42,503 nt of DNA, taken from a virus. Shown here piece after piece: positions 2,550-41,563 of this stretch. Each line of letters opens with the position of its first letter. Positions within the stretch are counted from its first letter, which is position 1. Under the pieces are notes generated by a model that saw only the letters and a list, made by a program, of their open reading frames with translations, ran no database searches and was not told where the DNA came from. The stretch is from IMG/VR virus record IMGVR_UViG_3300030333_002288, positions 1 through 42,503 of that record, one strand, 5' to 3'. A program made the position numbers and the translations under genes.

Positions 2550-2577
2550 TTGAGGGGTGTTTATATCTACATATAAT
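2550..2577 (+). promoter_or_regulatory. Host-type sigma70 promoter for the secreted-protein cassette
   Basis: TTGAGG at 2550-2555 and a perfect TATAAT at 2572-2577, separated by 16 bases, lie in the only gap of this rightward arm within the first 5 kb. The predicted start is near 2584, 31 bases before the membrane-protein gene at 2615. A phage-type motif lies just downstream (2593-2607), so the cassette may be transcribed by both host and phage polymerases. Confidence 0.65.
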
Positions 2578-2592
2578 GCTTAAAATAACATC

Positions 2593-2607
2593 AACGTCCC
2601 TGTAGAC
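2593..2607 (+). promoter_or_regulatory. Candidate phage-RNAP promoter, copy A
   Basis: AACGTCCCTGTAGAC, a member of the recurrent 15-base family (C at position 3, G-T-A at 10-12, A at 14). It is 7 bases before the ATG at 2615 and on the same strand. Thirteen of 15 bases match the copy near 5.9 kb. Confidence 0.5.
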
Positions 2608-2614
2608 CTCGCTT

Positions 2615-3013
2615 ATGGCTGACAAAGACCAAACTCAAAGCATAGAAGTAAAGGACGAAGATGATATACCTGAGTATCAAGATATGATCCTATTTTATTT
2701 ATCAAATGGGGTCAAAACGCTAGTGTTGGTCTGGAGTCTCAGTATTCTGAGCTTGGCGTACATCTCTTTTCCACCAGTAATAAAAATAGGAAATATAGAA
2801 TTTGAAATGCCTGATCAACGACCTGATACCAGTTTTGCGAGCGCGATGTTAGGCACAGTCCTGACAAGTTATGGACTGAATGTATCGAAGGGTGCAACGG
2901 CTAAAAAGAAAAACGGCGAAGGTGGAGGAGGTAACACGCACACTATTCTTGTTAAATATCCTCCAACTGAGGTGCAAGTTGTTACTAAAAAACCTGATTC
3001 AAATAACGCATGA
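2615..3013 (+). CDS. Membrane protein, possible holin, 132 aa
   Basis: After an acidic N terminus (about residues 1-25), residues 33-52 form a clear transmembrane helix (VKTLVLVWSLSILSLAYISF). A second weakly hydrophobic segment (SFASAMLGTVLTSYGLNV) lies near 73-90, followed by a Gly/Lys-rich tail. This topology and size fit a holin or an inner-membrane anchor protein, but no holin family motif is certain. It is first in a four-gene rightward cassette whose other three products carry signal peptides, and its stop overlaps the next start (ATGA). From memory, similar proteins occur in marine T4-like cyanophages. Confidence 0.75.
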   Translation: MADKDQTQSIEVKDEDDIPEYQDMILFYLSNGVKTLVLVWSLSILSLAYISFPPVIKIGNIEFEMPDQRPDTSFASAMLGTVLTSYGLNVSKGATAKKKNGEGGGGNTHTILVKYPPTEVQVVTKKPDSNNA

Positions 3014-3504
3014 AAAAGCTATTTCTTCTTTTGCTATTAGCAGCTCCAGCTAATGCCGATATTTATCACACCATTTCCAAGTCAACAGCTTTAAAGGTTA
3101 ATGCTGGTGCAACTCAGACGACCAGGCTGGGGACAAGTTATTCGGTAAGCGGATCAGGTGTGGATACAAGCTACACGCCGTCAGGAGGAAGTGCTGTTAG
3201 TGATGGCATTGGTTCTTTGACTATTAGTTCAGGAGTTGGTGCCATTCCATCGTTAACAGTAACACAAAAAACTGCTGGAAATTCTTTTACTTTTTCACAA
3301 AATTTCCGACAAGGAGATGCCCTAAGTACCTCTGCGCCAACAGTAGGAACAGTTGGCAACTTCTCAGAGCAGACCTCGACTCTCGCAGGTTCGGCTGGGT
3401 CGTTGGCAGGCACAATTACTGATACTGGTATTACATTAACAGCAGGAAATTCTGGGACAGAGGCCGTTGGTCAAATTATTAATGAACTCCGAATCGTGGA
3501 TTAA
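3010..3504 (+). CDS. Secreted Ser/Thr/Gly-rich protein with signal peptide, 164 aa
   Basis: Begins with a textbook signal peptide (MKKLFLLLLLAAPANA, cleavage after about residue 16). The mature part is rich in Ser, Thr, Gly and Ala and predicted all-beta, with segments such as TRLGTSYSVSGSGVD, ISSGVGAIPSL, FTFSQNFRQGDAL and GSAGSLAGTIT. It has no cysteines. The pattern resembles, from memory, a family of exported proteins encoded together in T4-like marine cyanophages; function unknown. It should reach the periplasm or outer surface through Sec. It overlaps both neighbours, consistent with coupled translation. Confidence 0.82.
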   Translation: MKKLFLLLLLAAPANADIYHTISKSTALKVNAGATQTTRLGTSYSVSGSGVDTSYTPSGGSAVSDGIGSLTISSGVGAIPSLTVTQKTAGNSFTFSQNFRQGDALSTSAPTVGTVGNFSEQTSTLAGSAGSLAGTITDTGITLTAGNSGTEAVGQIINELRIVD

Positions 3505-3922
3505 ATTTGCTTTTTTATTTATTACTTTTGCCCCACAAGTTAGGGCAGAAAAGATAGTGCCAAACTTCCAACAGGGAGTTTTAAATAATCACACCGAAAC
3601 TAAAACAATTTTAAAACGGGATTTAACCATTTTTGAATTTAGGAATGGTTATGAATTTACTGTTGGCGGTTCTGGAATTAAGCCATCAACAAATAATATT
3701 GCACCTTCAGGGTTTGTTAAAACGCCTGGAACAGTTTCAGGAACAGCTACAACTTACGTCATGCCAGATCTCTCAACCAAGCCTCAGTACTCAATAGTTA
3801 ACGAAGGCGCAGCCTTTAGTTACTACGAAACACTAGAAACTCCAGGGATTAAATCTATGACAAAAATAATAGAAGAACAAACCATAGAAAGTATCTCAGA
3901 TAGTACGAGTACTTTTCAATGA
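3482..3922 (+). CDS. Secreted beta-rich protein with signal peptide, 146 aa
   Basis: The ATG at 3482 is preferred because it puts a signal peptide (KFAFLFITFAPQVRA, cleavage near residue 22) at the N terminus; an earlier in-frame ATG at 3467 adds five residues. The mature part begins near EKIVPNFQQGVLNN and includes FEFRNGYEFTVGGSGI, STKPQYSIVNEGAAFSYYE and a C terminus ending ESISDSTSTFQ. From memory, these segments match an exported protein family of T4-like cyanophages encoded next to the preceding family. No catalytic motif is visible. It overlaps the previous gene by 23 bases and the next by 4. Confidence 0.8.
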   Translation: MNSESWIKFAFLFITFAPQVRAEKIVPNFQQGVLNNHTETKTILKRDLTIFEFRNGYEFTVGGSGIKPSTNNIAPSGFVKTPGTVSGTATTYVMPDLSTKPQYSIVNEGAAFSYYETLETPGIKSMTKIIEEQTIESISDSTSTFQ

Positions 3923-4599
3923 AAAATATATATTTAGCTCTTTTATTTATTACTTTGCCTGTTAAATCCTTCGCACAAAGTATTAACACATCATCCCAAT
4001 CAACGGGGTCAGTTGTTAACCAAGCAGTACAAGTTGTACCTTCGAGGCAGTTCCAATATCAACTTGGGGCAAATCAAGTTTGCCAAGGAATGACATTAAA
4101 TATATCGCCATTCCTCAGTCATACCAATAGCTTTGGGTCGCCTTATCAGCCCTATTATTCTAGACCTATCTATTCAACGAAAGATATAGAGGGGGCATTT
4201 GATGATAATAATAATCCTATTGGAGATGGCGAACCAGATGAACCCACAAAGATAATTAGAACAGAACAAGTAAGAACAGGGATGCAAGAATCGAACACAA
4301 GTTTAAACGGGGGTATAACCGCCACGCTGTCCATACCGTTAAGTTTTAGATACCAGAAGCTTTGCCGCAAAGGATTAGAAAGACAAGTCGAAATGTATGA
4401 AGCTTCTTTAGCATCATCAAGACTTACTTATGAGCTTCAGAGATTGGCTACCTGTGGTAAGAGAATTAGAGAAGGTACTATTTTTGTTGGAGAAATGGCA
4501 AAGATTTGTGCAGATGTAAAAGTAGTTTCGCCTCCTAATGTTGAACATACTCACGCTATTTCTTCCGATCTCTCTGTAACTTCCGACGCTCAAAAGTAG
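3919..4599 (+). CDS. Secreted protein with signal peptide and helical C-terminal part, 226 aa
   Basis: Signal peptide MKNIYLALLFITLPVKSFA (cleavage near residue 19), then a beta-rich half (YQLGANQVCQGMTLNISPF, TATLSIPLSFRYQKLC) and a helical segment (ERQVEMYEASLASSRLTYEL) ending near MAKICADVKVV. Four cysteines lie in the mature part (CQGM, KLCRKG, LATCGK, KICADV), so periplasmic disulfides are plausible. The combination recalls, from memory, another member of the exported cluster of T4-like cyanophages. The outer-membrane-like strand pattern is suggestive only. Its last 44 bases overlap the end of the opposing gene. Confidence 0.8.
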   Translation: MKNIYLALLFITLPVKSFAQSINTSSQSTGSVVNQAVQVVPSRQFQYQLGANQVCQGMTLNISPFLSHTNSFGSPYQPYYSRPIYSTKDIEGAFDDNNNPIGDGEPDEPTKIIRTEQVRTGMQESNTSLNGGITATLSIPLSFRYQKLCRKGLERQVEMYEASLASSRLTYELQRLATCGKRIREGTIFVGEMAKICADVKVVSPPNVEHTHAISSDLSVTSDAQK

Positions 4600-5182
4600 A
4601 TAAAACTTTTTGTTTTTTACCAATCATTTTTTTAACTTTAGCTATTAATTTTTTAAATATAGGCTTCAAAGCTTTAGTTAAAATAGGCGTGATTGTAGCG
4701 GCGGTTGTAGCCACAACAGTTATTCCGAATGTTGTTGATGCAACTGAGGCACTAGGGAGGTACTTGTCTGCAATATTAGTTGGCCCCCATATCTCAAAGC
4801 ACTTATCCCCGACCAGCTCGAACCCGATTACCTTCTCTTTTGCCTTTGCATTTCTTATATCCCCTAACCGATACTGTTGATCTTTCGCAGGACATTCAAT
4901 TTCTATGTCTCCTGTGTCAACTAAACCTGTATCTACATCTGTATTATTATTCTTGTTTTTTTGTGATTTTGTTTCGTCGTCAGGGGGTGTAGGGGTAGGA
5001 GGTTTTTTTAAAGTTTGCATTTTTATAGGGTTATATCTCATCGGTTCAAAGAACGGAAAGATAAAATCAAACCCTGGCTTTTCTACATTTAATTCTCTTG
5101 TTATCTGACGAGTAGTAGGAAGACTATTTATTTTTGGTATTCCAACTTTCTCTACTTCTATCTTTTCAATCTTCACTAGCAA
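4556..5182 (-). CDS. Membrane-anchored protein with Pro-rich linker and basic tail, 208 aa
   Basis: Unrecognised. Residues 1-60 are mixed and followed by a proline/acidic linker (KKPPTPTPPDDETK, about 60-73). A compact region with two cysteines (IECPAKDQQYRLGDIRN, then VGDKCFEIWGP) comes next, then one hydrophobic segment (TTFGITVVATTAATITPIL, about 150-168) and a strongly basic tail (KKLIAKVKKMIGKKQK). Most of the protein probably lies on the far side of the membrane from the basic tail. It is last of three leftward membrane-protein genes. It collides with the secreted cassette, its end overlapping the opposing gene by 44 bases. Confidence 0.75.
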   Translation of the reverse strand: MLVKIEKIEVEKVGIPKINSLPTTRQITRELNVEKPGFDFIFPFFEPMRYNPIKMQTLKKPPTPTPPDDETKSQKNKNNNTDVDTGLVDTGDIEIECPAKDQQYRLGDIRNAKAKEKVIGFELVGDKCFEIWGPTNIADKYLPSASVASTTFGITVVATTAATITPILTKALKPIFKKLIAKVKKMIGKKQKVLSTFERRKLQRDRKK

Positions 5183-5691
5183 TCTACGAAGTCGCCACCT
5201 ATCTCTTTCCCTAATTCGCCCGCCTTTTTGGTGGCTAATGCGCTGGCAATCCAGCCCACCACAGGTATCCCAGACAAAGTACTAGCTGCTGGAGTGGCAG
5301 TAACCAATGAGGTTCCAACTATCTCTCCTTGTGATTCTGCGCTGCCTTTATTCTTTATACATTGGAGATAGCTGGCTGCTAACTCTGCATCTCCTCCAGG
5401 TCGATGGGCAACATATTCTTTTCTTACATAGTCAGTCTTACCATTCCATTTTGTTTTCTCAGAAGAGAATAAAGTTGTCTTAGGTTGGTGCATGTTATGT
5501 GTAACTACTACCTCTAAATCCCCAGACTCAGATCGGTTGTATCGCAGTTGACTTGCGCTATCTCTAGATGTGGCTAATCGCGCTAAATCTGGTATGCCAT
5601 CTTTACTAGAATTAGATAGCAAAGTTAAGGACATCAAGTTACTAGAAATCAATCCTATTCCTAGTAGGCCAGGTAAAAAATATTCTTTCAT
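5176..5691 (-). CDS. Membrane/secreted hypothetical protein, 171 aa
   Basis: An N-terminal hydrophobic stretch (FLPGLLGIGLISSNLMSLTLL, about residues 5-25) looks like an uncleaved signal anchor. A second hydrophobic segment (TLSGIPVVGWIASALA) near 138-153 is followed by a short tail ending in Cys (GGDFVDC). The middle is soluble (NRSESGDLEVVVTHNMH). Unrecognised. Overlaps of 7 bases downstream and 1 base upstream (stop/start TAATG) place it in one unit with its neighbours. Confidence 0.75.
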   Translation of the reverse strand: MKEYFLPGLLGIGLISSNLMSLTLLSNSSKDGIPDLARLATSRDSASQLRYNRSESGDLEVVVTHNMHQPKTTLFSSEKTKWNGKTDYVRKEYVAHRPGGDAELAASYLQCIKNKGSAESQGEIVGTSLVTATPAASTLSGIPVVGWIASALATKKAGELGKEIGGDFVDC

Positions 5692-5894
5692 TACTTAAAT
5701 GGCAGCGCTGGCCCAGTAGCACTAGGCATTTTGATTTGATGTTGAATAACATCAATCATTTGATCTTGAAGAGTTGAAAGTATATGGTTTGTAAATTCAA
5801 CTCGTTTCATGTATATATATCCTCCTCCTGTTACGACCATTAAGGACATAACAAACGATGCTACTGACATAGCATTACAAATTTTTTGCAGCAT
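5691..5894 (-). CDS. Small single-span membrane protein, 67 aa
   Basis: MLQKICNAMSVASFVMSLMV begins a single transmembrane helix (about residues 8-28), followed by an amphipathic helix (FTNHILSTLQDQMIDVIQHQ) and a short tail ending TGPALPFK. From memory, small proteins of this architecture, including a TGPALPF-like end, are common in T4-like marine cyanophages; function unknown. It is first of three leftward membrane-protein genes after the tail fibre, and a phage-type promoter motif lies immediately upstream. Confidence 0.75.
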   Translation of the reverse strand: MLQKICNAMSVASFVMSLMVVTGGGYIYMKRVEFTNHILSTLQDQMIDVIQHQIKMPSATGPALPFK

Positions 5895-5898
5895 TAAA

Positions 5899-5916
5899 CT
5901 TTACGACCCTGTAGAC
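5899..5916. promoter_or_regulatory. Candidate phage-RNAP promoter, copy B (reads on both strands)
   Basis: On the minus strand, 5913-5899 reads TACAGGGTCGTAAAG, ending 4 bases before the ATG at 5894. On the plus strand, 5902-5916 reads TACGACCCTGTAGAC, nearly identical to copy A. The element is partly self-complementary, so its direction is ambiguous. Plus-strand use would make RNA antisense to the 3' end of the tail fibre gene. Confidence 0.45.
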
Positions 5917-27121: not shown

Positions 27122-27997
27122 CTAGAACAAGTCTGGGCTTCTTGCCAATATTTCTTTAACACTTTGCTGATAAGCTTCGTCAATATCATATATTTTTTGT
27201 CCTCTTTCATTCCTCTTATTCATTGCATCAAGCACTTGTTGTTGACTTCTAAATACTGTTTCGCTTGGTACATCTCCACCCCCGATAAGTTTCGGCTCTA
27301 CAACTGATCTAGGATTTGCCATGTCTAGCTGCATAGATCTAATAGCCCAACGTATTGACTCAAGATTCCCTCCATCCATCGTTTTGTTGAACTCTTTAAT
27401 CATTTCCTCAGGCATATTCTTATTAGCCCACTCACCCATTTGTTTATAAGCTTCTGGTCCTCCTACCTCATTAATAATTTGCTCCTCATCTGCTGCTGTT
27501 AATTCATTCGACGTATCTACAGGTTGGCCCGATTTGCCATAGGTATTAACAAAACCTTCTACAAGTGATCTAGGAACATTGAATGTCTCAGCAAGAGTAT
27601 CGTAATGCTCGCTTATATCTCCGCCATTATCGGCAGAGTGCATCAACTCTTCCATCTTTAAACCTTTTGAAGCCAAAGCCTCAACGCCTGCCTCTCCATA
27701 AATAGAAACAGCCTGATCTCGCGTATAAGATTCCGTTGGTTGTGGCGTTTCAGTTTGAGTTTCAGTCTGGGTTTCAGTCTGAGGCTCAGATTTTTGCTGC
27801 TGACTCTTTGTGTATTGCCTTTGCAACTCCGCATAGGACTTTGCTAAATCCTCAGTACTATTAAACTTTTGTAGAACTTTTTGAGTCTCTTCAGAAATCT
27901 GATCTTGTTGTTGTAGCTCCTGGACCAGCTCTTGCTGGGCAGGACTAGCCAAACCCTCCTGTCCTTCAGGAGTAGATAGTTGTGGCGTTTCGGTCAT
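27122..27997 (-). CDS. Capsid scaffolding protein (gp9-like), 291 aa
   Basis: Internal scaffold for prohead assembly, absent from mature virions. Acidic, Gln/Glu-rich and helical as in T7 gp9 (307 aa): an N-terminal disordered part (TETPQLSTPEGQEGLASPAQ), helices with EDLAKSYAELQRQYTKSQQQ, a Thr/Gln/Glu repeat (TQTETQTETQTE, about 77-88) and a conserved basic C-terminal end (NKRNERGQKIYDIDEAYQQS) likely to bind the capsid. It lies between portal and capsid genes. The ATG overlaps the portal stop by 4 bases. Confidence 0.92.
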   Translation of the reverse strand: MTETPQLSTPEGQEGLASPAQQELVQELQQQDQISEETQKVLQKFNSTEDLAKSYAELQRQYTKSQQQKSEPQTETQTETQTETPQPTESYTRDQAVSIYGEAGVEALASKGLKMEELMHSADNGGDISEHYDTLAETFNVPRSLVEGFVNTYGKSGQPVDTSNELTAADEEQIINEVGGPEAYKQMGEWANKNMPEEMIKEFNKTMDGGNLESIRWAIRSMQLDMANPRSVVEPKLIGGGDVPSETVFRSQQQVLDAMNKRNERGQKIYDIDEAYQQSVKEILARSPDLF

Positions 27998-29598
27998 GGT
28001 TGTTCTTGAGGTTGATTATTAGAAATGTCTTGGGAAGTTTGGGCAGCATCAGCTAATTTTTTAGGATCTGCCATTGCTGATTGAAGTAACGCAGCTTGTT
28101 GAGCTTGCTCTTGCTGAGCCTGTTGCTCTTGCTGCAACTCCTGTTCAGTCTTGATTAGCCCAAGAGTGTCTATGCCCATTGAATAGGCAAGACGAGTAAT
28201 TAACTCAGTAGGCTTTAAGTACTGAGCTAATCCCTCTGGGCCTATGGTCTGACCCAGAGTTGTTGTAAATCTGACTAATTGTTCTAAATCATTTCCTCTT
28301 CCAACAGCGGCAAGACCAACAGTCATGACTACTGAAACCAAGTCATCTGGTAATTCAGGAACCTTCTTCTCTCTAGTTAAAATATCTAACTTCCTGGCAA
28401 CATAAGGCACTTGGAAAGTAGTCGTCAAAATTGAATATATTGAGCCGAGGCTTTGTTCCGTTTGGAGCTGGCTCATTCTCACTTCTTCCGCGGTCACGCG
28501 CTCCGCGTTTCGCTGATCAGCCAACATGAAAGCCTGTGCCAGCCTACGTTCTATCTGTTCTTTACCTTGCATCGCTACCGCAAGATCCTGTGATTTCTGC
28601 ATTTGCAGACTAAGCACATCGGTAGGATCTCCTGTAACAAAGGAGCCATTTGCGGCCCTTGCAAGATCAGAAGCTTTCGTAACTCCGCTTGGTTTTACAA
28701 GGAACAAGCACTTACTCGACGCTAATGCTGCTTCTGCTATTGCCTGACATAAAGCTTCTACTGTTTGAAGGTCAGCAATTGCCGCCTGTTCGATATATCC
28801 CACTCCATAACTCTGTCCTGCAACCGCTGTCATCCGCAATGCAAGCCAAGGACTCTTATCTTTTGGTGCTTTGCCTTCTGATCCAGGTACAATCTTATTT
28901 TTTACTTGCTGATTCCACTTAACAAAGTTCCCTTCCCACTTGATATGGGTGTAAACCTTGCAAGTATCCTGTTCATCCCCATTAATCTCAACTTGATTGT
29001 CGTAAAAACCTTTTAATTCTTCTTCTTTCTCTTCTTCGAGTATCTTCTTAACGCTTTCTGGCAGCATTTCATAAGGAATTTCCTCGCAAACAACGACCTC
29101 ATTGGGTTCGCCCATTGGATCGCGAAAACATACATAGCGATTTAAGTGATATAGCTTTAATCCCTCTGGAGCAATGTATAAAAGAGCATTTCCTGTAACG
29201 ATTAAATGTAATAACGCCTCATGCAATACAACTCGATCATTGCTCGCTTCAATCTCACGCAAAACCATACGCTCAATTTTGCTTAAAGCCTCTTCATATC
29301 TTGTTTTTTCTTCTGGTCCGACTCCTTGCTGCGCTAATTGAGCCTCGTCTAACGAAAATCTAAAAAATTGTTGCGTTGGAGGTAGTAAAGCAAGAAGCAT
29401 ACGACTCGCTAAATTCAGAGTTCCACGAGCACCTATCCCATTCCACGGAACGGGGTATGTATCTTTGTTGTTTAACCTTGGATCATTCGAGGCTGGTACG
29501 AGATAGGGAATGGTTAATCTCGCAGAATGTCGAGCACGATCTAAGTGCCAGTTACGGTCATTTTCGCCATCCCTAAAACGTTGTTCGGCAGTTCTCAT
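27994..29598 (-). CDS. Portal / head-tail connector (gp8-like), 534 aa
   Basis: Dodecameric portal through which DNA is packaged and ejected. Nearly identical in length to T7 gp8 (536 aa). Family segments: LTIPYLVPASNDPRLNNKDT near 27-46, GARGTLNLASRMLLALLPPT near 56-75, GNALLYIAPEGLKLYHLNRY near 132-151, MTAVAGQSYGVGYIEQAAIA near 258-277 and NAERVTAEEVRMSQLQTEQS near 362-381. The C terminus is Gln-rich (ELQQEQQAQQEQAQQ), typical of podovirus portals. It is followed directly by scaffold and capsid genes. Confidence 0.95.
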   Translation of the reverse strand: MRTAEQRFRDGENDRNWHLDRARHSARLTIPYLVPASNDPRLNNKDTYPVPWNGIGARGTLNLASRMLLALLPPTQQFFRFSLDEAQLAQQGVGPEEKTRYEEALSKIERMVLREIEASNDRVVLHEALLHLIVTGNALLYIAPEGLKLYHLNRYVCFRDPMGEPNEVVVCEEIPYEMLPESVKKILEEEKEEELKGFYDNQVEINGDEQDTCKVYTHIKWEGNFVKWNQQVKNKIVPGSEGKAPKDKSPWLALRMTAVAGQSYGVGYIEQAAIADLQTVEALCQAIAEAALASSKCLFLVKPSGVTKASDLARAANGSFVTGDPTDVLSLQMQKSQDLAVAMQGKEQIERRLAQAFMLADQRNAERVTAEEVRMSQLQTEQSLGSIYSILTTTFQVPYVARKLDILTREKKVPELPDDLVSVVMTVGLAAVGRGNDLEQLVRFTTTLGQTIGPEGLAQYLKPTELITRLAYSMGIDTLGLIKTEQELQQEQQAQQEQAQQAALLQSAMADPKKLADAAQTSQDISNNQPQEQP

Positions 29599-31201: not shown

Positions 31202-31465
31202 ATGGATTTACAAGAACAATTAGCAGAGATTCATTCTGAATTAATAAGCCAAGTGCTTGAAGATCTAAGGAATGGAGATCGCAAAGCAAGATCAGACGCA
31301 ATGGCTCTACTAAAACAAAATAATGTGACTGCTGTTGCGGCTGAAGGTAGCACTTTGAAGAAACTTGCCAACAAACTTGACTTCTCAAGCATGGATGACA
31401 AGGTAATTCCTCTTAAGATCCCATCGTCAAACGTTGAATCCCTCCATAAGAACGTCCAGAAGTAG
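31202..31465 (+). CDS. Terminase small subunit (gp18-like), on the opposite strand to the large subunit
   Basis: DNA-packaging protein that recognises concatemer ends and hands DNA to the large terminase. The ATG at 31202 gives 87 aa (T7 gp18: 89 aa). Helical N terminus (MDLQEQLAEIHSELISQVLE) and a middle RSDAMALLKQNNVTAVAAEG followed by LKKLANKLDF fit, from memory, the small-terminase family of cyanopodoviruses. It is the only rightward gene inside the leftward virion arm, and its last 53 bases overlap the end of the large terminase gene. A possible host promoter (TTTACA at 31132, TATATA at 31157, spacer 19) is weak. Confidence 0.75.
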   Translation: MDLQEQLAEIHSELISQVLEDLRNGDRKARSDAMALLKQNNVTAVAAEGSTLKKLANKLDFSSMDDKVIPLKIPSSNVESLHKNVQK

Positions 31466-33188
31466 TTTTCTTCTTAAAACCAAACGCTATTCGATCAATA
31501 GAACCTGTTGTTTCATCCATCCAGGCTTCTAATTCATCTTCAAATAGCTGATCTTTCCTTGCTTGTTGTTGTATTTGCTGGTCCTGGGCCGCAGATTCAA
31601 CAAAAAATGCACAAGCTATAGCGAGAGCATCGAGCCGATCATCATACGGGATGCAATTTTTTTCCTCTGTCAGCCTTGAGGCTTGCCAAAAAAGGCTGCG
31701 TGAATATCCATGTTCAGGATCTTCGTCAGTAAGACGATAATCATTTTTAATTACTCGGCTATTAATAATAAGACGATGCTGCTGAATCAAAGGAGCAAGA
31801 GTGTCACATAATCTCCGTTCTTTTTGAATGTTATGTCTAACTTCTTCAATAGTGCAGGGATGAGTTCTTGCAAGGTGCGGCTTTAGTAGGGCACTAAACA
31901 TGCCATCGCCCATATTCGACTCAGCCACCACATAATTGACATCCCATTTCTTCGCTATATCAGCTAAATACCGCAAAACTTCATCGGCATAGCCCAAAGT
32001 AGACCCACCCGACTCAAGTAAAAACATATTTCCGTTTAATTCTGCTAAAACTGCCCAAGCTAATTCGTCAGACCTAACGCCTCCTCTGCCAGCGGGATCA
32101 ATTGCTAAGACACACCGCCATGATTCGGTTTTTGATACCCATCCATTTTGAAATATTGGGCGATGGTAGAACCTATCAGCTCCAAGTCCGACACAAACAA
32201 GCTCTTGCAATCTCATATCAGGTTGGTTAGACCATATACAAGTCTCGGGCAGAGCTTTCCCATCAAGATCCATGACCATGAGATCCCCAAGCCTGATTGG
32301 ATACTTGTCTAAAGTAGACAATCGGGTATTGAGCATGAACTGAAGTTCAAAGCTCGCCTTAGTCATGGATGCTTTTCTTTGAAGGATGTCCTCATGCCCA
32401 AATCTTTCTGGATCAGTCGGCTCTTCCACGAGGCTGCTATTCGCGATGACCTCTTGTTCAATCGTCGGATCGAGGCTGCCCTCGTAGCAATCGAACTCCT
32501 TCGGATAGAGCGCAGGCCAGTAACGAGCAGAATAGTTCCGTTCTCTCACAAGCCTTAAATATATCGAAGTCTCCGTATGTGGCGTTCCTAAATATAAAAT
32601 TTTACGGGGCAAAACCTGGCCCTCTTCTGGCTTTATGATACTTTGTATTTCTTCAACAGCGTGTGCAACTCTGTCTTGTTTTAGCTGTGTAATTACGTTA
32701 GCTAAAGTTTCAACATCATCAAGAATTGCACAAGTACATCTTTGTCCAGTTGTTTGTCCCATGACACCCATAGATCGAACAGACGGAGACTGTTCAACTT
32801 GAGCTGGCCCTACATCAAAAGCAACATTAGAGAATCTATTCTCTGGCCCAGGCATAAGACATTGAAGAATATCAACTTCTCCAATGCAGCGAAGCATAAA
32901 AGACGAAAAGTCAGTTGATTTAACTGCTGTAGCAGAGACAATCAGAATTTTTTCATTCGGATCTACTCTTAATCTCCATAAAGCATAAAAAGACGCAAGA
33001 ATTGACTTACCTAATCCACGAAAAGCAACAGTAAGACTTCGATCTGGTCCATTTTGCATCCAATTACAGACAGAAATCTGCTGCTTAGTTGGGGCATCGG
33101 CTAACCCCAACTCTCGCAACAAATAACAAGTGAAATTAGGAAAACTATCTCTTAATTGAGGTGGTAACTCTTCCCATAAACTATTCAC
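31413..33188 (-). CDS. Terminase large subunit (gp19-like), 591 aa
   Basis: ATP-driven packaging motor and nuclease, 586 aa in T7. Segments: SLTVAFRGLGKSILASFYAL near 52-71 with the Walker A-like GLGKS, CTCAILDDVETLAN near 150-163 as Walker B (LDD), LYLGTPHTETSIYLRLVRER near 198-217 as coupling motif, and the RNase H-type nuclease acidic residue in VLAIDPAGRGGVRSDE near 362-377. A further acidic motif VVAESNMGDGMF lies near 419-430, and YDDRLDALAIACAFF near 527-541. In T7 terminases follow the tail fibre; here they precede the portal block. Its ATG overlaps the preceding small gene (ATGA). Confidence 0.95.
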   Translation of the reverse strand: MNSLWEELPPQLRDSFPNFTCYLLRELGLADAPTKQQISVCNWMQNGPDRSLTVAFRGLGKSILASFYALWRLRVDPNEKILIVSATAVKSTDFSSFMLRCIGEVDILQCLMPGPENRFSNVAFDVGPAQVEQSPSVRSMGVMGQTTGQRCTCAILDDVETLANVITQLKQDRVAHAVEEIQSIIKPEEGQVLPRKILYLGTPHTETSIYLRLVRERNYSARYWPALYPKEFDCYEGSLDPTIEQEVIANSSLVEEPTDPERFGHEDILQRKASMTKASFELQFMLNTRLSTLDKYPIRLGDLMVMDLDGKALPETCIWSNQPDMRLQELVCVGLGADRFYHRPIFQNGWVSKTESWRCVLAIDPAGRGGVRSDELAWAVLAELNGNMFLLESGGSTLGYADEVLRYLADIAKKWDVNYVVAESNMGDGMFSALLKPHLARTHPCTIEEVRHNIQKERRLCDTLAPLIQQHRLIINSRVIKNDYRLTDEDPEHGYSRSLFWQASRLTEEKNCIPYDDRLDALAIACAFFVESAAQDQQIQQQARKDQLFEDELEAWMDETTGSIDRIAFGFKKKTTSGRSYGGIQRLTMGS

Positions 33189-34475: not shown

Positions 34476-34786
34476 CCATTTTGCTGCTCGCGATTAAGTA
34501 GGGTTCGTCGTCGTTCAAAACCTAATATCCCCCCTTGGCCCCCCTAATCCGCTGAAAAAATCAAAAAAAAATTCTAAAAAGCATATATTTTGCAAGTTTG
34601 GGCCGAGGGGGCAGGGTGGGGGCTGGACTTCGTCGAATCATTAATTCGCCGGAGTATTTCTGCCCCTGGTCGAATGGCTGGACCAGCTCCAGAGGAGCCC
34701 GCCAGGCAAACGGACAAGTGAGAGCCCGCCGCGGGAGGCTGAGAGGCAGGGAATACAACAGAATGTTAAGTTTTAAAGGCTAAGTC
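34476..34786 (+). other. Non-coding divergent region: C-runs, A-tract, G4 motif and GC-rich structured block
   Basis: No credible gene. Two runs of six C separated by TTGG (34529-34544) are followed by an A-rich tract (34554-34580), then a G-quadruplex motif and a GC-rich block (34623-34750). That block holds several self-complementary stretches, such as CTGGTC/GACCAG (34665-34686) and CCCGCCGCGGG. It lies between the two arms and just before the first rightward promoter motif, as would suit an origin, a structured leader RNA or an early control region. Open frames across it have atypical Arg/Gly/Pro composition and no ribosome site. Confidence 0.5.
34600..34622 (+). other. Canonical G-quadruplex motif
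   Basis: Four G-runs of at least three (GGG, GGGGG, GGG, GGGGG) with loops of 4, 2 and 1 bases, directly after the A-rich tract. Such short loops predict a stable G4 in DNA or RNA. Confidence 0.7.
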
Positions 34787-36718: not shown

Positions 36719-36872
36719 TCTACCCAAGGCTTTAGTAGGTCATTCATTATTATTAATGGGGGGCGTAGTCATACTCCCCGCTTTTATTTATTTAGTGATG
36801 TTCCTATTGGAGCCGTTTGTTGTTTTTGGATTTGGATCTTATTTGATATGGACATGCCTGAAGAAAAATTAA
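36705..36872 (+). CDS. Small membrane protein, GTG start, 55 aa
   Basis: GTG start behind a perfect AAAGGAGG ribosome site 6 bases upstream. After a short basic N terminus (MKRNDLPKALVGHS), two adjacent hydrophobic segments (LLLMGGVVILPAFIYLVMFL, then PFVVFGFGSYLIW) form a hairpin or one long span; the tail is TCLKKN. Overlaps the start of the winged-helix regulator gene by 25 bases. A small inner-membrane effector or superinfection-exclusion protein is possible; no family is recognised. Confidence 0.65.
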   Translation: MKRNDLPKALVGHSLLLMGGVVILPAFIYLVMFLLEPFVVFGFGSYLIWTCLKKN

Positions 36873-37204
36873 ACACTTTCTCTTTGTTACTAAAAACATT
36901 GAGACATAACAGTAGAAGACACACATGCCCTTCGGCGCTCCAGGTCGAAGTCTTATTACATGTTGCGGTAAAGCCTAGAACTTATGAAGAGCTGGCCACT
37001 TTAACCAATACATCTAATGGGCCTATCTCCAGAGCAATTGCGAGCATGGCCCCAAGAGTTCATAAAGGGGAATTTATTATGCCCAACATTTATTTACTAA
37101 ATAGAGACTACGATTCATCAAAGAAAAGATTCAAGGTTTCTTTATCCACACCTGGAAAAGAACTGATGAAGGAAATTGGTCTCATTAGTTCTACAAGGGC
37201 GTAA
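36848..37204 (+). CDS. Winged-helix (MarR-like) regulator 1, 118 aa
   Basis: Helix-turn-helix with wing: LQVEVLLHVAVKPRTYEELA, then TLTNTSNGPISRAIASMAPR (recognition helix about 55-70), then the wing NIYLLNRDYDSSKKRFKVSL and PGKELMKEI. The order matches MarR-type regulators, and the protein aligns along its length with the second regulator at 37471. Placed before the integrase, it is a candidate regulator of integration or of the RNA polymerase gene. An ATG two codons later (36854) is an alternative start. Confidence 0.75.
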   Translation: MDMPEEKLNTFSLLLKTLRHNSRRHTCPSALQVEVLLHVAVKPRTYEELATLTNTSNGPISRAIASMAPRVHKGEFIMPNIYLLNRDYDSSKKRFKVSLSTPGKELMKEIGLISSTRA

Positions 37205-37470: not shown

Positions 37471-37788
37471 ATGGATTTATCTAAACTCTCAACTGCTCTT
37501 GAATCATTGGGCTCTCTTGCCCCGGGTAATTTTCCTGTGCATCACGCCCAAGTTCTTTTATTCATTGCGGAAAAAGGGAGTTGCACGTATCGAGATATAG
37601 AAAAAAGGTTTGATGTAACAAATGCATCAGCCTCAAGAATTGTCCACACCCTCAGCGAAACTGTTCGCCATAGAGAGACTTGTTTAGGGCTCTGTGAGAT
37701 CTACATAGACCCAGAAGAAGGGAGAAGGTACAGAGTCAGGCTCTCTAAAAAAGGCAAAGCAAAGATCAGGTCGCTTGAGGGTATCTAA
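37471..37788 (+). CDS. Winged-helix (MarR-like) regulator 2, 105 aa
   Basis: Paralogue of regulator 1: HHAQVLLFIAEKGSCTYRDI, then EKRFDVTNASASRIVHTLSE (recognition helix about 51-63) and wing EIYIDPEEGRRYRVRLSKKG. Only 18 bases separate its stop from the integrase start, so the two are probably co-transcribed. This suits a role in the lysogeny decision or excision. The 5' leader ends with an unusual anti-Shine-Dalgarno-like stretch (37452-37462) rather than a ribosome site. Confidence 0.78.
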   Translation: MDLSKLSTALESLGSLAPGNFPVHHAQVLLFIAEKGSCTYRDIEKRFDVTNASASRIVHTLSETVRHRETCLGLCEIYIDPEEGRRYRVRLSKKGKAKIRSLEGI

Positions 37789-37806: not shown

Positions 37807-38844
37807 ATGGCCCACGTTATTGATACAAGCGTCACCCTTCGAAAGATCGGTTGGGTGGTTGATGTTAGGTACAGCGACGGAAAGAGAAAGCAGTTAACTA
37901 GCAAGAAATGGACGAAAAAAGAAGCCATAGCCAGGGAACTTGCTATTCAAATGCTCGACTCCTCTATGCCTGGAGCTGGAGCGGAAGGTTTATACACCCT
38001 TCAACAAGGTTTTAATGACGCAGTTAAATATGTCTGGTCAAATTGCGAAGATGAAAAAACTCTTACAGGAAGAGGCAAAGATGTATTGAATTACTTTGGC
38101 CCTAATGCAGATATCACTTCAATTAATGCTGCAAAAGTAATTGAATACAGAAAATATTTAATAGAAAGAAAAAATAATTCAAACTCAACCGCTAATTACA
38201 AGACAAGTGCCCTCAGAGTGATGAGAGAAATGGCAATTGTTCACGGTGGAGTCGAAAGCGTACCTGTATTACCAAAGAATCTAAAAATTAATAAAAAACA
38301 AATCGAAGTTTGGGAAGATGAAGAAAGAAACAGGGTTGAAGAGTTTTTAAGAAGAATTAACAGGAAAGATGTTGTTCGTCATTTTGAATTTCTATGTGAA
38401 ATGGGATGCAGGCCCATTGAAATGGAGAGAACAACAAAAGCGAGTTACAACTTGGAGGCAAATCCTCCAACAGTAACTTTTTTCAAGGCAAATAATGACA
38501 ACAAGAATGGAAACAGAACACTCCCTCTAACACCAAAGGCTTACAAAATGCTGGTGGAGCAAATCTTAAATATGCGACAGGGCCAGGAGAAGGTTTGGCC
38601 TTCAACATGCGATGCTCTCAGATTTCAAATAGAAAAAGCATGTAGAGAATTAAAGATTGAAAAGAGCTCAGTCGTGAAGATTACAAGACATACCTGCGGA
38701 TCACGTTTAGGCAATCAAGGATGCACAGCCCTAGAGATTGCAAACTGGTTGGGCCACTCTTCAACTCAAATGTGCGAAAAGTACGTCAAGATGAATAGTG
38801 AAAAACATGCGACAGCATATAGAATCTTGTCTGAGCGGGTCTAG
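37807..38844 (+). CDS. int: Tyrosine-recombinase integrase, 345 aa
   Basis: Site-specific recombinase for integration into the host chromosome. The catalytic domain shows R202 (EMGCRPIEME), K227 in the beta hairpin (TFFKANN), R294 (KITRHTCGSR), H317 (WLGHSS) and nucleophile Y326 (EKYVKM). The usual His three residues before the second Arg is K291, a tolerated but uncommon change. The N terminus has an arm-binding-like part (WVVDVRYSDGKRKQLTSKKW) and a SAM-like core-binding domain near 70-150. The last ten bases lie inside the tRNA gene: the stop codon TAG is tRNA sequence. The tRNA is therefore the likely attachment site. Confidence 0.95.
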   Translation: MAHVIDTSVTLRKIGWVVDVRYSDGKRKQLTSKKWTKKEAIARELAIQMLDSSMPGAGAEGLYTLQQGFNDAVKYVWSNCEDEKTLTGRGKDVLNYFGPNADITSINAAKVIEYRKYLIERKNNSNSTANYKTSALRVMREMAIVHGGVESVPVLPKNLKINKKQIEVWEDEERNRVEEFLRRINRKDVVRHFEFLCEMGCRPIEMERTTKASYNLEANPPTVTFFKANNDNKNGNRTLPLTPKAYKMLVEQILNMRQGQEKVWPSTCDALRFQIEKACRELKIEKSSVVKITRHTCGSRLGNQGCTALEIANWLGHSSTQMCEKYVKMNSEKHATAYRILSERV

Positions 38845-38907
38845 CGATCTGGTGAACGCACCAAACTCATAATTTGGCTCAGGCGAGTTCGATCCTCGCG
38901 ACCCGCA
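38835..38907 (+). tRNA. tRNA with CAU anticodon (elongator Met or Ile2), probable att site
   Basis: A complete 73-base cloverleaf: acceptor GCGGGTC/GACCCGC (7 bp, perfect), D stem GCG/CGC with GG in the loop, anticodon stem CCAAA/TTTGG with loop CTCATAA (anticodon 38868-38870), variable CTCAG, T stem GCGAG/CTCGC with loop TTCGATC, discriminator A, no encoded CCA. It lacks the initiator features (G-C triplets in the anticodon stem, mismatch at 1-72), so it is elongator tRNA-Met or the tRNA-Ile whose CAU is modified to read AUA. It overlaps the integrase stop, as for a phage using a tRNA as attachment site; it could equally be a working phage tRNA. Confidence 0.93.
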
Positions 38908-39160
38908 TTGCAACATTTTTGTAAAGTTAGTTCGATGAATTCGACCATGCAGAGTGTTTGCATCAAAGTCTTGCAAGTTTGCAAAAAAATATGCTGAAAT
39001 CAATTGGTATTACTGGGCTCCTTCGACCTCATAATTCGACGAAACAACATCTTAGCCCCCGTGGAGCAAATAATTCGAGTCCTTGCGTAGCATTTGATCC
39101 TGGCAATACGACCAAGTAACGAATAACTTGCATTTGCAAGTGAGTTTTTTTGAGTTGCAA
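38908..39160 (+). promoter_or_regulatory. RNA polymerase leader with five TTGCAA palindromes
   Basis: TTGCAA occurs at 38908, 38971, 38979, 39134 and 39155, with TTGCAT at 38957 and 39128. CTTGCA-TT-TGCAAG (39127-39140) forms a perfect hairpin at the polymerase start. Three (A/G)AATTCGA copies (near 38936, 39032 and 39071) also lie here. The region between tRNA and polymerase holds no gene. It is a plausible site for repressor operators and integrase arm sites. Confidence 0.5.
39107..39121 (+). promoter_or_regulatory. Candidate phage-RNAP promoter, copy I (self-promoter of RNAP gene)
   Basis: TACGACCAAGTAACG; its first six bases equal the T7 promoter segment TACGAC, and G10 T11 A12 are kept. 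It lies just before the polymerase start and would allow autogenous transcription. Confidence 0.45.
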
Positions 39161-41563
39161 GATATTCGGACCCTTGAAGAGGAGCAAATAGCACGACAAT
39201 TACGTGCAGAAAAAAGGGCTGAAGAAACACACAAAAGTAATGAAAGAAAACTTAAACAGATAGGAAAAGAGAGCGCATTAATTTATGGCAGGAAGTTATA
39301 TGGATTATTAGTTGATGAATTAACCAGCAGATTAAATAAGACTTTTATTGAGTTTGTAGGGAATCCAAACAAGGCAAGATTTCATGGAGCTGCGATTCCA
39401 TTCTTTGATCCTTTTAAGTCTCCAGAGCACGTTGCAACCATCGCCCTGGTCGCGACCCTTGATCAATTAAGCAGAAGACAAAGAATTGCCACGTTTTGCC
39501 AAGGGCTAGGAGCTGCGGTTGAGAAAGAGATCCGATTAATGAGGCTGGCTAATAAAAGTCCGATGGAGCTGCGGCACCTAATGAGGCAAGGCTTAAGCAG
39601 GAACAAGATCAGCACAATGGAGATAATGCGGAAAATGGGATGCCCTGTTCTTCCTTTTAATGATTTAAGCAGGCTTCATATTGGTCAGTTTCTTTTAGAT
39701 CACTTAATCCATACAGGTCTGATCAAGGTTGTAACTCGAAAGATTGGTAGAACTACCCCCAAGTTTGTACTTCCTACTGATCATGCAGAGAAAATAATTA
39801 AGAGCTGCCCACCCTCAACTTATAAGGTGGCTTATTCGGCAATGGTATCTCCTCCAGTTCCTTGGCCTGGGTTATATGGAGGAGGCAGGCCAGGCAACGA
39901 GGAATGTTTTGTCAGAGTCCCAATTCACGACGCTGAAGAAAAAGACACCACAGCAATAGAGCATTACAGGCAAGCAGACCTAACAAAGACATTTGTAGCG
40001 ACAAATCACCTCCAGGCGACGGGACTACGCGTTAAAGGGGATCTTATCGGATGGGAGAGAAACACTTGGGAGAATGGGACAGAAGGCTTATGGTCATGCG
40101 CGAAAGTCCCCTTAGATGTTCCTGAACGGTTAGGGCGAGATCCAGATCCAGAGGACTTAAAGATTAGGAATCGTCTTGCTTCGATGGCTCATCGAGACAG
40201 AGAGCAAAACAGACCCAAAAGGATCAAGATTGAGCGCTCGCTTCAAGAGGCCGAGGCGTTAGCCGATAGGGTTGTTTACCAGGCTTACCACGCTGATCAC
40301 AGGTCGAGGCTTTATACGTCCAATAAATATGTATCCAGCCAAGGCCCAGACTATGAAAAGGCCATGCTGGACTTTGCTGAAAAGTTACCAGTAAATGACG
40401 AGGCTTTTGATTGGTTGCTTAAGGGAGCTGCCGGGCACTATGGACATGGGAGAAAATCATGGGATGAACGCCTGAACTGGGGAAGAAAGAATATTAATTT
40501 GATGAAAGCAGCGGCAGAAGATCCACTTGGAAGGCTTGAATTGTGGCGAAACGCTAACGATCCCTGGCAATTCTTACAGGCGTGCCAAGGGGTAAAAGAG
40601 GTACTTGAAACAGGTAAAACAGGATGCCCCGTGAGGTTCGATCAGACCACCTCAGGCTGCGGGATAATTGCGGCCCTGTTGAGGTCAGAGAAGGTTGGGA
40701 AGGAGTGCAATTTGTTTGGCAACGAGCGCAGGGATCTTTACACCCTCGTCGCTGAAAAAGTTACAGAAAGATTGGTCCACGATCTGCAATTTGGTGAAAC
40801 AAAAAACAAAGCGTTAGCAGAAATATGGCTTCAGAAAGGAATTACTAGGTCTTTATGTAAGCAGCCAATACTTGCAGCTCCTTATGGCGGTTCATATATG
40901 TCCCTATGTGATGCGCTAGTTGAAAGGCTCGACGAGCACCTGGGCTATGTCCCACTTGAAAATTTCACTTACGAAGTTGCTATCCCTGCGAAATATTTAG
41001 CAAGTCATTTATGGGCTGAAACAAAAATGAGAATTAAGCCTTGCCTTGATTTTAAAAAATGGCTTCAAAAAGTAACAAGAAAAGTAATGTCCAAAGGTCA
41101 CGCCCTGGAGTGGACAACTCAAAGCGGTTGGCCCATGAGAATTGCAGATAGAGAGCCACAAATTAAAAGGATTCAGACAATGTTATTCGGGAAACATTCA
41201 ACGATGAATATTAAAGATCAACCAAAAGATGCACCCTTATGTGCGACACAGGCCAATAAAGGAATAGCCGCGAACTTCACACATAGTTGGGATTCTGCCT
41301 TTTGCGTAAACTTCGTTTACAAGGCCGTAGAACAAAATATACAAGTGCTGACAAATCACGATTGTTTTGCTGTTCATGCGGCTAACGCTGGCAAGGCACA
41401 TGAGACACTTCACGATACTTTTAATGAGCTTTATGCCCCTAACTGGCTGATAGGTTTTGTCGATGAAATCCAGATGTCTACAGGGGTGTTGTTACCTGAG
41501 TTACCCAAGCAAGGAAGTCTAGATCCAAGACTAATTGGGACAAATCCTTACTTATTTTCTTGA
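39140..41563 (+). CDS. T7-type single-subunit DNA-directed RNA polymerase, 807 aa
   Basis: Phage polymerase that transcribes middle and late genes. Palm and finger motifs are in order: motif A RFDQTTSGCGIIAALLRS with catalytic Asp near residue 501 (T7 D537); motif B ITRSLCKQPILAAPYGGSYM with Lys and Tyr equivalents; and motif C LTNHDCFAVHAA with the second catalytic Asp near 741 (T7 HDSF, D812). AANFTHSWDSAFCVNFVYKA just before it matches T7 PNFVHSQD. T7 RNAP is 883 aa. There is no ATG for about 130 codons; GTG 39140 (then SFFELQDIRTLEEEQ) is favoured, with TTG 39128 or 39134 as alternatives inside the hairpin. The weak start and TTGCAA-rich leader suggest tight control. Confidence 0.95.
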   Translation: MSFFELQDIRTLEEEQIARQLRAEKRAEETHKSNERKLKQIGKESALIYGRKLYGLLVDELTSRLNKTFIEFVGNPNKARFHGAAIPFFDPFKSPEHVATIALVATLDQLSRRQRIATFCQGLGAAVEKEIRLMRLANKSPMELRHLMRQGLSRNKISTMEIMRKMGCPVLPFNDLSRLHIGQFLLDHLIHTGLIKVVTRKIGRTTPKFVLPTDHAEKIIKSCPPSTYKVAYSAMVSPPVPWPGLYGGGRPGNEECFVRVPIHDAEEKDTTAIEHYRQADLTKTFVATNHLQATGLRVKGDLIGWERNTWENGTEGLWSCAKVPLDVPERLGRDPDPEDLKIRNRLASMAHRDREQNRPKRIKIERSLQEAEALADRVVYQAYHADHRSRLYTSNKYVSSQGPDYEKAMLDFAEKLPVNDEAFDWLLKGAAGHYGHGRKSWDERLNWGRKNINLMKAAAEDPLGRLELWRNANDPWQFLQACQGVKEVLETGKTGCPVRFDQTTSGCGIIAALLRSEKVGKECNLFGNERRDLYTLVAEKVTERLVHDLQFGETKNKALAEIWLQKGITRSLCKQPILAAPYGGSYMSLCDALVERLDEHLGYVPLENFTYEVAIPAKYLASHLWAETKMRIKPCLDFKKWLQKVTRKVMSKGHALEWTTQSGWPMRIADREPQIKRIQTMLFGKHSTMNIKDQPKDAPLCATQANKGIAANFTHSWDSAFCVNFVYKAVEQNIQVLTNHDCFAVHAANAGKAHETLHDTFNELYAPNWLIGFVDEIQMSTGVLLPELPKQGSLDPRLIGTNPYLFS

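Follow-up and report, generated by a model that had tools for sequence, protein, structure and literature searches.

Positions 2550–5894 of an IMG/VR record of 42,503 bp (IMGVR_UViG_3300030333_002288; the whole record is referred to as the window) raise the question of why a podovirus, T7-like by its gene content, should carry a cassette of seven genes whose products are all membrane or exported proteins by sequence. Four of the genes (g1–g4) run rightward and face three leftward ones (g5–g7), as a preliminary description of the locus had reported, and all seven open reading frames (ORFs) were recovered where that description had placed them. A large share of ocean primary production is set free when cyanophages lyse their hosts, and none of the cyanophage literature consulted names the lysis genes of phages carrying g4. 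We find that families already in the databases as hypothetical proteins form a mobile module that crosses phage families and is tied to lysis by its exclusion from genomes with known endolysins and by its use of an endolysin slot. The chances seem to us evenly balanced that the cassette is a mobile, cyanophage-specific envelope module that carries out host lysis or is essential to it; many marine cyanophages would most likely use it instead of the usual endolysin cassette. Since the module moves as a block between families and, in the genomes tested, does not occur with known endolysins, it is a concrete and testable lysis candidate, and a lysis role, if true, would explain families whose only annotations so far are hypothetical, OMP1, or plasmid stability.

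A Cassette Shared by Unrelated Cyanophages

Each of the seven products has a match among cyanophage PHROG families (E-values of about 1e-10 to 2e-49) and the order and orientation of the genes recur in about 140 loci, which together place the cassette beyond chance. A search of the phage collection at the DNA level gave no match to it. With tblastn, 415 phage records were found to contain g4 and 406 to contain g2, all of them cyanophage or uncultured marine by name, and a g4 query taken from a third group enlarged the set to 462 records, now including T7-like cyanophages. In the T4-like phage Syn9 all seven families are present as gp161–gp167, between hsp20 and regA, with gp167-166-165 converging on gp164-163-162-161; P-TIM40 has the same gene plan. 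The Syn9 block and the window thus have g2-g3-g4 convergent on g5-g6-g7 in common, with the 3' ends of g4 and g5 overlapping, whereas g1 lies at the g7 end in Syn9 (the regA side) and heads the g2–g4 run in the window; Syn9 lacks the T7-type context, and the function of the block there is likewise only hypothetical. The resemblance to a T4-like cyanophage cluster that had been proposed for several of the products therefore extends to homologues of all seven in the same convergent layout.

The proposal that the module is common to unrelated phage families was also borne out, and its reach proved wider than foreseen: It spans T4-like, S-TIM5, siphovirus-like, and podovirus lineages. In the siphovirus MED4-184, g7-g5 converge on g4-g3-g2-g1, and S-TIM5, which is a myovirus but not a T4-like one, encodes g4 in a similarly convergent set whose other members were not individually confirmed as cassette genes. 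It should be noted that IMG/VR contigs were assigned to groups from few markers and that "siphovirus-like" is a provisional term, based on homologues of tail-tip J or RecT in the contigs examined and on the absence of a T7-like portal in 13 of 13. Among the podoviruses, the uvMED phage MedDCM-OCT-S37-C6 (AP013546) shares with the window the slot between exonuclease and tail fiber, the backbone, the integrase, and g1–g4 converging on g5 and g7; it differs in that g6 was not detected and in a g4 identity of 43%. An extra predicted secreted, beta-rich ORF occupies the place of g6 in S37-C6 (L004:9628-9993, minus strand). P-SSP7 (PSSP7_043-045), 9515-10a, S-TIP37, and P-SCSP1/2 carry a reduced g1-g3-g4 core, located near tail-fiber and terminase genes in the T7-like genomes examined, and g2, g6, and g7 were not detected in P-SSP7-type T7-like cyanophages. 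This core has its three families in the order seen in the window, between tail fiber and terminase, but its g4 is short, lacks the acidic insert, and is not convergent with g5. The possibility that the cassette genes belong to the normal set of T7-like cyanophages hence holds in part, for a g1-g3-g4 core that is ordinary in these phages.

The 3' ends of g4 and g5 overlap by 44 nt in the window (4556–4599), and an overlap was found in 127 of 140 loci, across phage families; where g5 loci were long enough to judge (n = 69), g4 was nearby in 68 and convergent in 67. This convergent overlap possibly reflects a regulatory or linkage constraint. Three podovirus contigs (L013, L021, and L029) have a T7-like portal and a backbone unlike that of the window, two of them (L021 and L029) resembling S38-C3 with an antirestriction-like protein, an integrase, and MarR-like regulators, and in all three a terminase lies upstream of the cassette. 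Their cassette DNA is about 77–86% identical to that of the window, and similarity is limited to the cassette (window 3009–5886) and a 65% terminase match. Both podovirus backbones are intermixed in the protein trees, and L021 shares with L161, a contig of the window lineage, a g3 without any difference in the matched domain. Because similarity is largely confined to the cassette, the trees are intermixed, and these two g3 sequences are identical over that domain, sequence comparison indicates that the cassette moved recently as one unit. The trees place the window lineage nested in a clade of siphovirus-like phages and podoviruses, beside L084, L085, and L094, and not among T4-like phages; they do not support the latter as its direct ancestors. 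The designation "T4-like cyanophage type" thus fits the families and their layout, but not the position of the window copy.

Homologues of g2-g3-g4 converging on a g5-like gene also occur on the chromosome in three related metagenome-assembled genomes (MAGs) of freshwater Synechococcaceae (L170:8821-11496, L171:8711-11230, and L172:8673-10432; g5 was seen in L170 and L171). They adjoin likely housekeeping genes (citrate synthase and an NDH subunit, recognized by eye), no phage genes were detected around the three copies, and they may represent a domesticated cassette. A host-chromosome origin of the cassette is not evident from these copies, which are confined to three close freshwater genomes among about 700 genome searches.

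Endolysins and the Cassette

In S31-C1, a sister phage of the window, the slot between exonuclease and tail fiber that holds the cassette in the window and in S37-C6 is taken by a GH19-type lysozyme (assigned from its annotation as lysozyme and a conserved motif in the alignment; Pfam gave no hit at 0.01). A related GH19 lysozyme follows directly after the tail fiber in P60 (MPP-A), and other T7-like cyanophages encode g1-g3-g4 further along the same region. S38-C3 has a GH19 protein; in its relatives of the L013/L021/L029 type the cassette is present and no GH19 match was obtained. To interrogate codistribution we used a panel of 21 genomes (20 cyanophage records and the window), searched for g4, GH19, and the C39-type family phrog_10051, the GH19 status of the window being taken from a hidden Markov model scan of its ORFs. 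An endolysin (GH19 or C39) was present in none of the 12 genomes with g4 (the window, P-TIM40, Syn9, P-SSM2, S-TIM5, S37-C6, P-SSP7, 9515-10a, S-TIP37, P-SCSP1a, P-SCSP2, and MED4-184) and in seven of the nine without it (S-SRP02, S31-C1, S38-C3, S-CREM2, S-SZBM1, S-PM2, and P60; exact p 3e-4); Syn5 and S-CRM01 have neither g4 nor a convincing endolysin. In addition, g4 was absent from all 17 contigs (99–247 kb) bearing an S-PM2-type endolysin, and this endolysin from all six T4-like contigs with g4, several of which are fragments. In the tested myo- and podoviruses, exclusion from genomes with known endolysins therefore holds, and it is not due to the host strain alone, since S-PM2 and several g4-carrying phages were isolated on the same host, Synechococcus WH7803. 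Searches of the window by Pfam, PHROG, and phrog_10051 match revealed no peptidoglycan hydrolase. Several of the siphovirus-like contigs encode a C39 endolysin (PHROG category lysis) divergently beside g1. The C39-type endolysin of S-PM2 itself (L190:3535-4230, S-PM2p153) is annotated as hypothetical, and its short neighbor S-PM2p154 as putative lysin.

From these patterns we infer lysis, a role for each protein, and late timing. The product of g1 (2615..3013, plus strand; inner-membrane protein, DUF6450/phrog_2714) would be a holin-like inner-membrane protein: The family members Syn9 gp161 and P-SSP7_043 show a holin-like layout, with a charged tail and a pair of hydrophobic segments, and the window protein has one strong transmembrane segment by hydropathy and no match to any holin family. 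The proteins g2 (3010..3504, plus strand; beta- and glycine-rich, phrog_564, annotated as OMP1 in S-RSM2 and others) and g3 (3482..3922, plus strand, its ATG lying inside a longer TTG ORF from 3467; DUF6322/phrog_650) are probably paralogues and, with their signal peptides and long beta strands, would assemble in or at the outer membrane. Connection of the envelope layers would fall to g4 (3919..4599, plus strand; phrog_848), which has a signal peptide, four conserved cysteines, an acidic DxxGNPIGDG-type loop, and a long helix at the C-terminus. The three leftward products would act as inner-membrane partners: g5 (4556..5182, minus strand; phrog_570) has a proline-rich N-domain, a C-terminal transmembrane segment, and a basic tail; g6 (5176..5691, minus strand; phrog_605), frequently undetected in other lineages, has an N-terminal transmembrane segment and a glycine-zipper-like C-terminus between cysteine residues; and g7 (5691..5894, minus strand; phrog_568, whose library name "plasmid stability" is uninformative here) is a 67-residue protein with a single transmembrane segment that ends in TGPALPFK. 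Both halves would be made late in infection, and their complex would breach the envelope. An extension of this scheme, in which T4-like, S-TIM5-like, and T7-like picocyanobacterial phages lyse without a classical endolysin through a trans-envelope complex of cassette proteins that is swapped as a block and interchangeable with GH19/C39 genes, is possible, though we consider it rather doubtful.

Of the topologies assumed here, the Sec-type N-termini of g2, g3, and g4, all without a lipobox, were called by eye and with a hydropathy scan, without SignalP, and hydrophobic segments are carried by g1, g5, g6, and g7; one membrane protein and three signal-peptide proteins in the rightward set agree with what had been predicted. 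Above the curated cut-off, a Pfam search of the cassette proteins for function returned only DUF6450 (g1) and DUF6322 (g3), and no enzymatic domain was recognized in any of the seven. The AlphaFold2 model of g3 has fair local and poor global confidence (pLDDT 83, pTM 0.45) and very long strands of 23–24 residues; Foldseek ranked phage tail proteins, anthrax PA, lysenin, and binary-toxin pores at the top, without significance (no match at E < 0.001), and the resemblance of the model to pore-stem beta hairpins is suggestive. For g4, AlphaFold predicted with low confidence a beta region and a 43-residue helix, to which Foldseek found no match. Both models are compatible with beta proteins assembled in the outer membrane and a helix in the periplasm, an arrangement for which they constitute weak evidence.

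Compared with holin-endolysin-spanin cassettes (T7 17.5/18.5/18.7 and lambda S-R-Rz/Rz1), the window cassette likewise combines small membrane and exported proteins near the tail fiber and is swapped against endolysin genes in relatives, but it has no endolysin, no lipoprotein o-spanin, and more secreted components. Several observations weigh against a lytic function. The panel of 21 genomes is small, its members are related, and some were picked after the pattern was suspected (S-PM2, P-SSM2, Syn5, P60, and S-CRM01 were picked before their g4 status was known). The cassette and a C39 endolysin occur together in 8 of the 13 siphovirus-like contigs; this weakens the case for strict replacement and rules it out as a universal rule, though it favors a connection with lysis. 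A protein of 934–966 residues in L013, L021, and L029 contains a partial match to phrog_10051. Known lytic domains are missing from all cassette proteins, the fold searches being without significance, and none of these proteins has a lipobox in its first 40 residues, so that there is no classical two-component spanin. Finally, the chromosomal homologues in the three freshwater Synechococcaceae imply that g2-g3-g4/g5 need not be lethal.

Promoter Elements and Alternative Functions

Upstream of g1 lies a sigma70-like promoter, TTGAGG-N16-TATAAT (2550..2577, plus strand), with 10 of 12 consensus bases (TTGAGG at 2550–2555, a 16-bp spacer, and TATAAT at 2572–2577). The near-consensus promoter noted in the preliminary description is thus present but not conserved: An exact TATAAT occurs nine times in the window, counting both strands, and precedes g1 in only one of 15 loci of the window lineage, which is this contig. 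Between TATAAT and g1 sits the element CGACCCTG(C/T)AGAC, of which the window copy, CGTCCCTGTAGAC (2595..2607, plus strand), has one mismatch; its degenerate form CG[AT]CC[CT][CT]G[CT]AGAC is kept in all 15 loci. A second copy of the element, CGACCCTGTAGAC (5904..5916, plus strand), is similar to the site upstream of g1, and a further similar site at 34784 on the minus strand faces the late operon. The conserved element is probably a promoter for the phage RNA polymerase.

Superinfection exclusion or envelope remodeling, by which the infected surface would be altered to block rival phages or to stabilize the envelope over a long latent period, agrees with the location of the proteins in several envelope layers by sequence, frequent exchange between phages, the glycine-zipper-like g6, and the rare chromosomal copies in cyanobacteria. 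On this reading, however, there is no reason to expect that the cassette and endolysins exclude each other or that endolysin slots are used repeatedly, and the conserved upstream element and late-gene neighborhood are unlike the needs of an immediate-early exclusion gene; we regard this function as unlikely.

That the proteins are part of the tail or adsorption apparatus, or assemble it, seems improbable: Sec signal peptides, found on three of the products, are unusual for virion proteins, and the T4-like block lies between hsp20 and regA, outside the tail genes, even though the cassette adjoins tail-fiber genes in several podoviruses and phage tail proteins are among the top Foldseek matches of the g3 model. 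The annotation of S-TIM5 points weakly in the same direction, with genes of the cassette region labeled hypothetical and their neighbors virion structural; the virion proteomes of S-CREM2 and S-SZBM1, two phages without g4, are uninformative on the cassette. An auxiliary function as an outer-membrane channel or a transport or nutrient aid for the infected cell, as could be read from the OMP1 annotation of g2, the long-strand beta model of g3, and the chromosomal copies, appears improbable to a like degree, given that it does not predict exclusion with endolysins and that MPP-C phages, reported to lack auxiliary metabolic genes (PMC9860041), keep g1-g3-g4.

Lysogenic conversion by a silent prophage expressing the cassette from the sigma70 promoter, as the preliminary description had suggested from this near-consensus site and as the integrase and tRNA-Met of the window might also indicate, is very improbable, since TATAAT is private to the contig and the phage-polymerase-like element is the conserved one, the genes occur in phages not known as temperate (Syn9 and S-TIM5), no prophage carrying them was found among the bacterial-genome matches (from a sample of genomes), and S-TIP37, a T7-like cyanophage with an integrase and itself positive for g1-g3-g4, integrates yet forms no stable lysogens (PMC8776855). 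A lysis module that disrupts the envelope is favored over it. The bacterial-genome matches are mostly phage contigs misbinned into unrelated MAGs, together with one T4-like contig from a single-cell genome of Prochlorococcus. Cyanophage contigs were binned with Gammaproteobacteria, Bacteroidota, archaea, and Chloroflexota (L161–L164 and L166–L169), among them L161, a window-like podovirus with a g4 identity of 89%.

Genomic Context of the Window

The window encodes a T7-type RNA polymerase (39128–41563), a portal (27994–29598), a terminase (31413–33188), and an integrase (37807–38844), and genes for scaffold, capsid, and tail tubular proteins were also recognized. Its portal is closest to those of the uvMED group G9 phages S37-C6 (69%), S31-C1 (66%), and S38-C3 (51%) and of the freshwater isolate S-SRP02 (56%). 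As in MPP-C cyanopodoviruses, no DNA polymerase gene was recognized in the window, only an exonuclease. The contig is nearly but not fully complete, for it seems to lack about 1 kb from RusA to the start of the primase. A full-length tRNA-Met (CAT; 38835–38907) overlaps the 3' end of the integrase gene and is a candidate attP, and two regulator genes, both phrog_9665, lie just upstream of the integrase (36848–37204 and 37471–37788).

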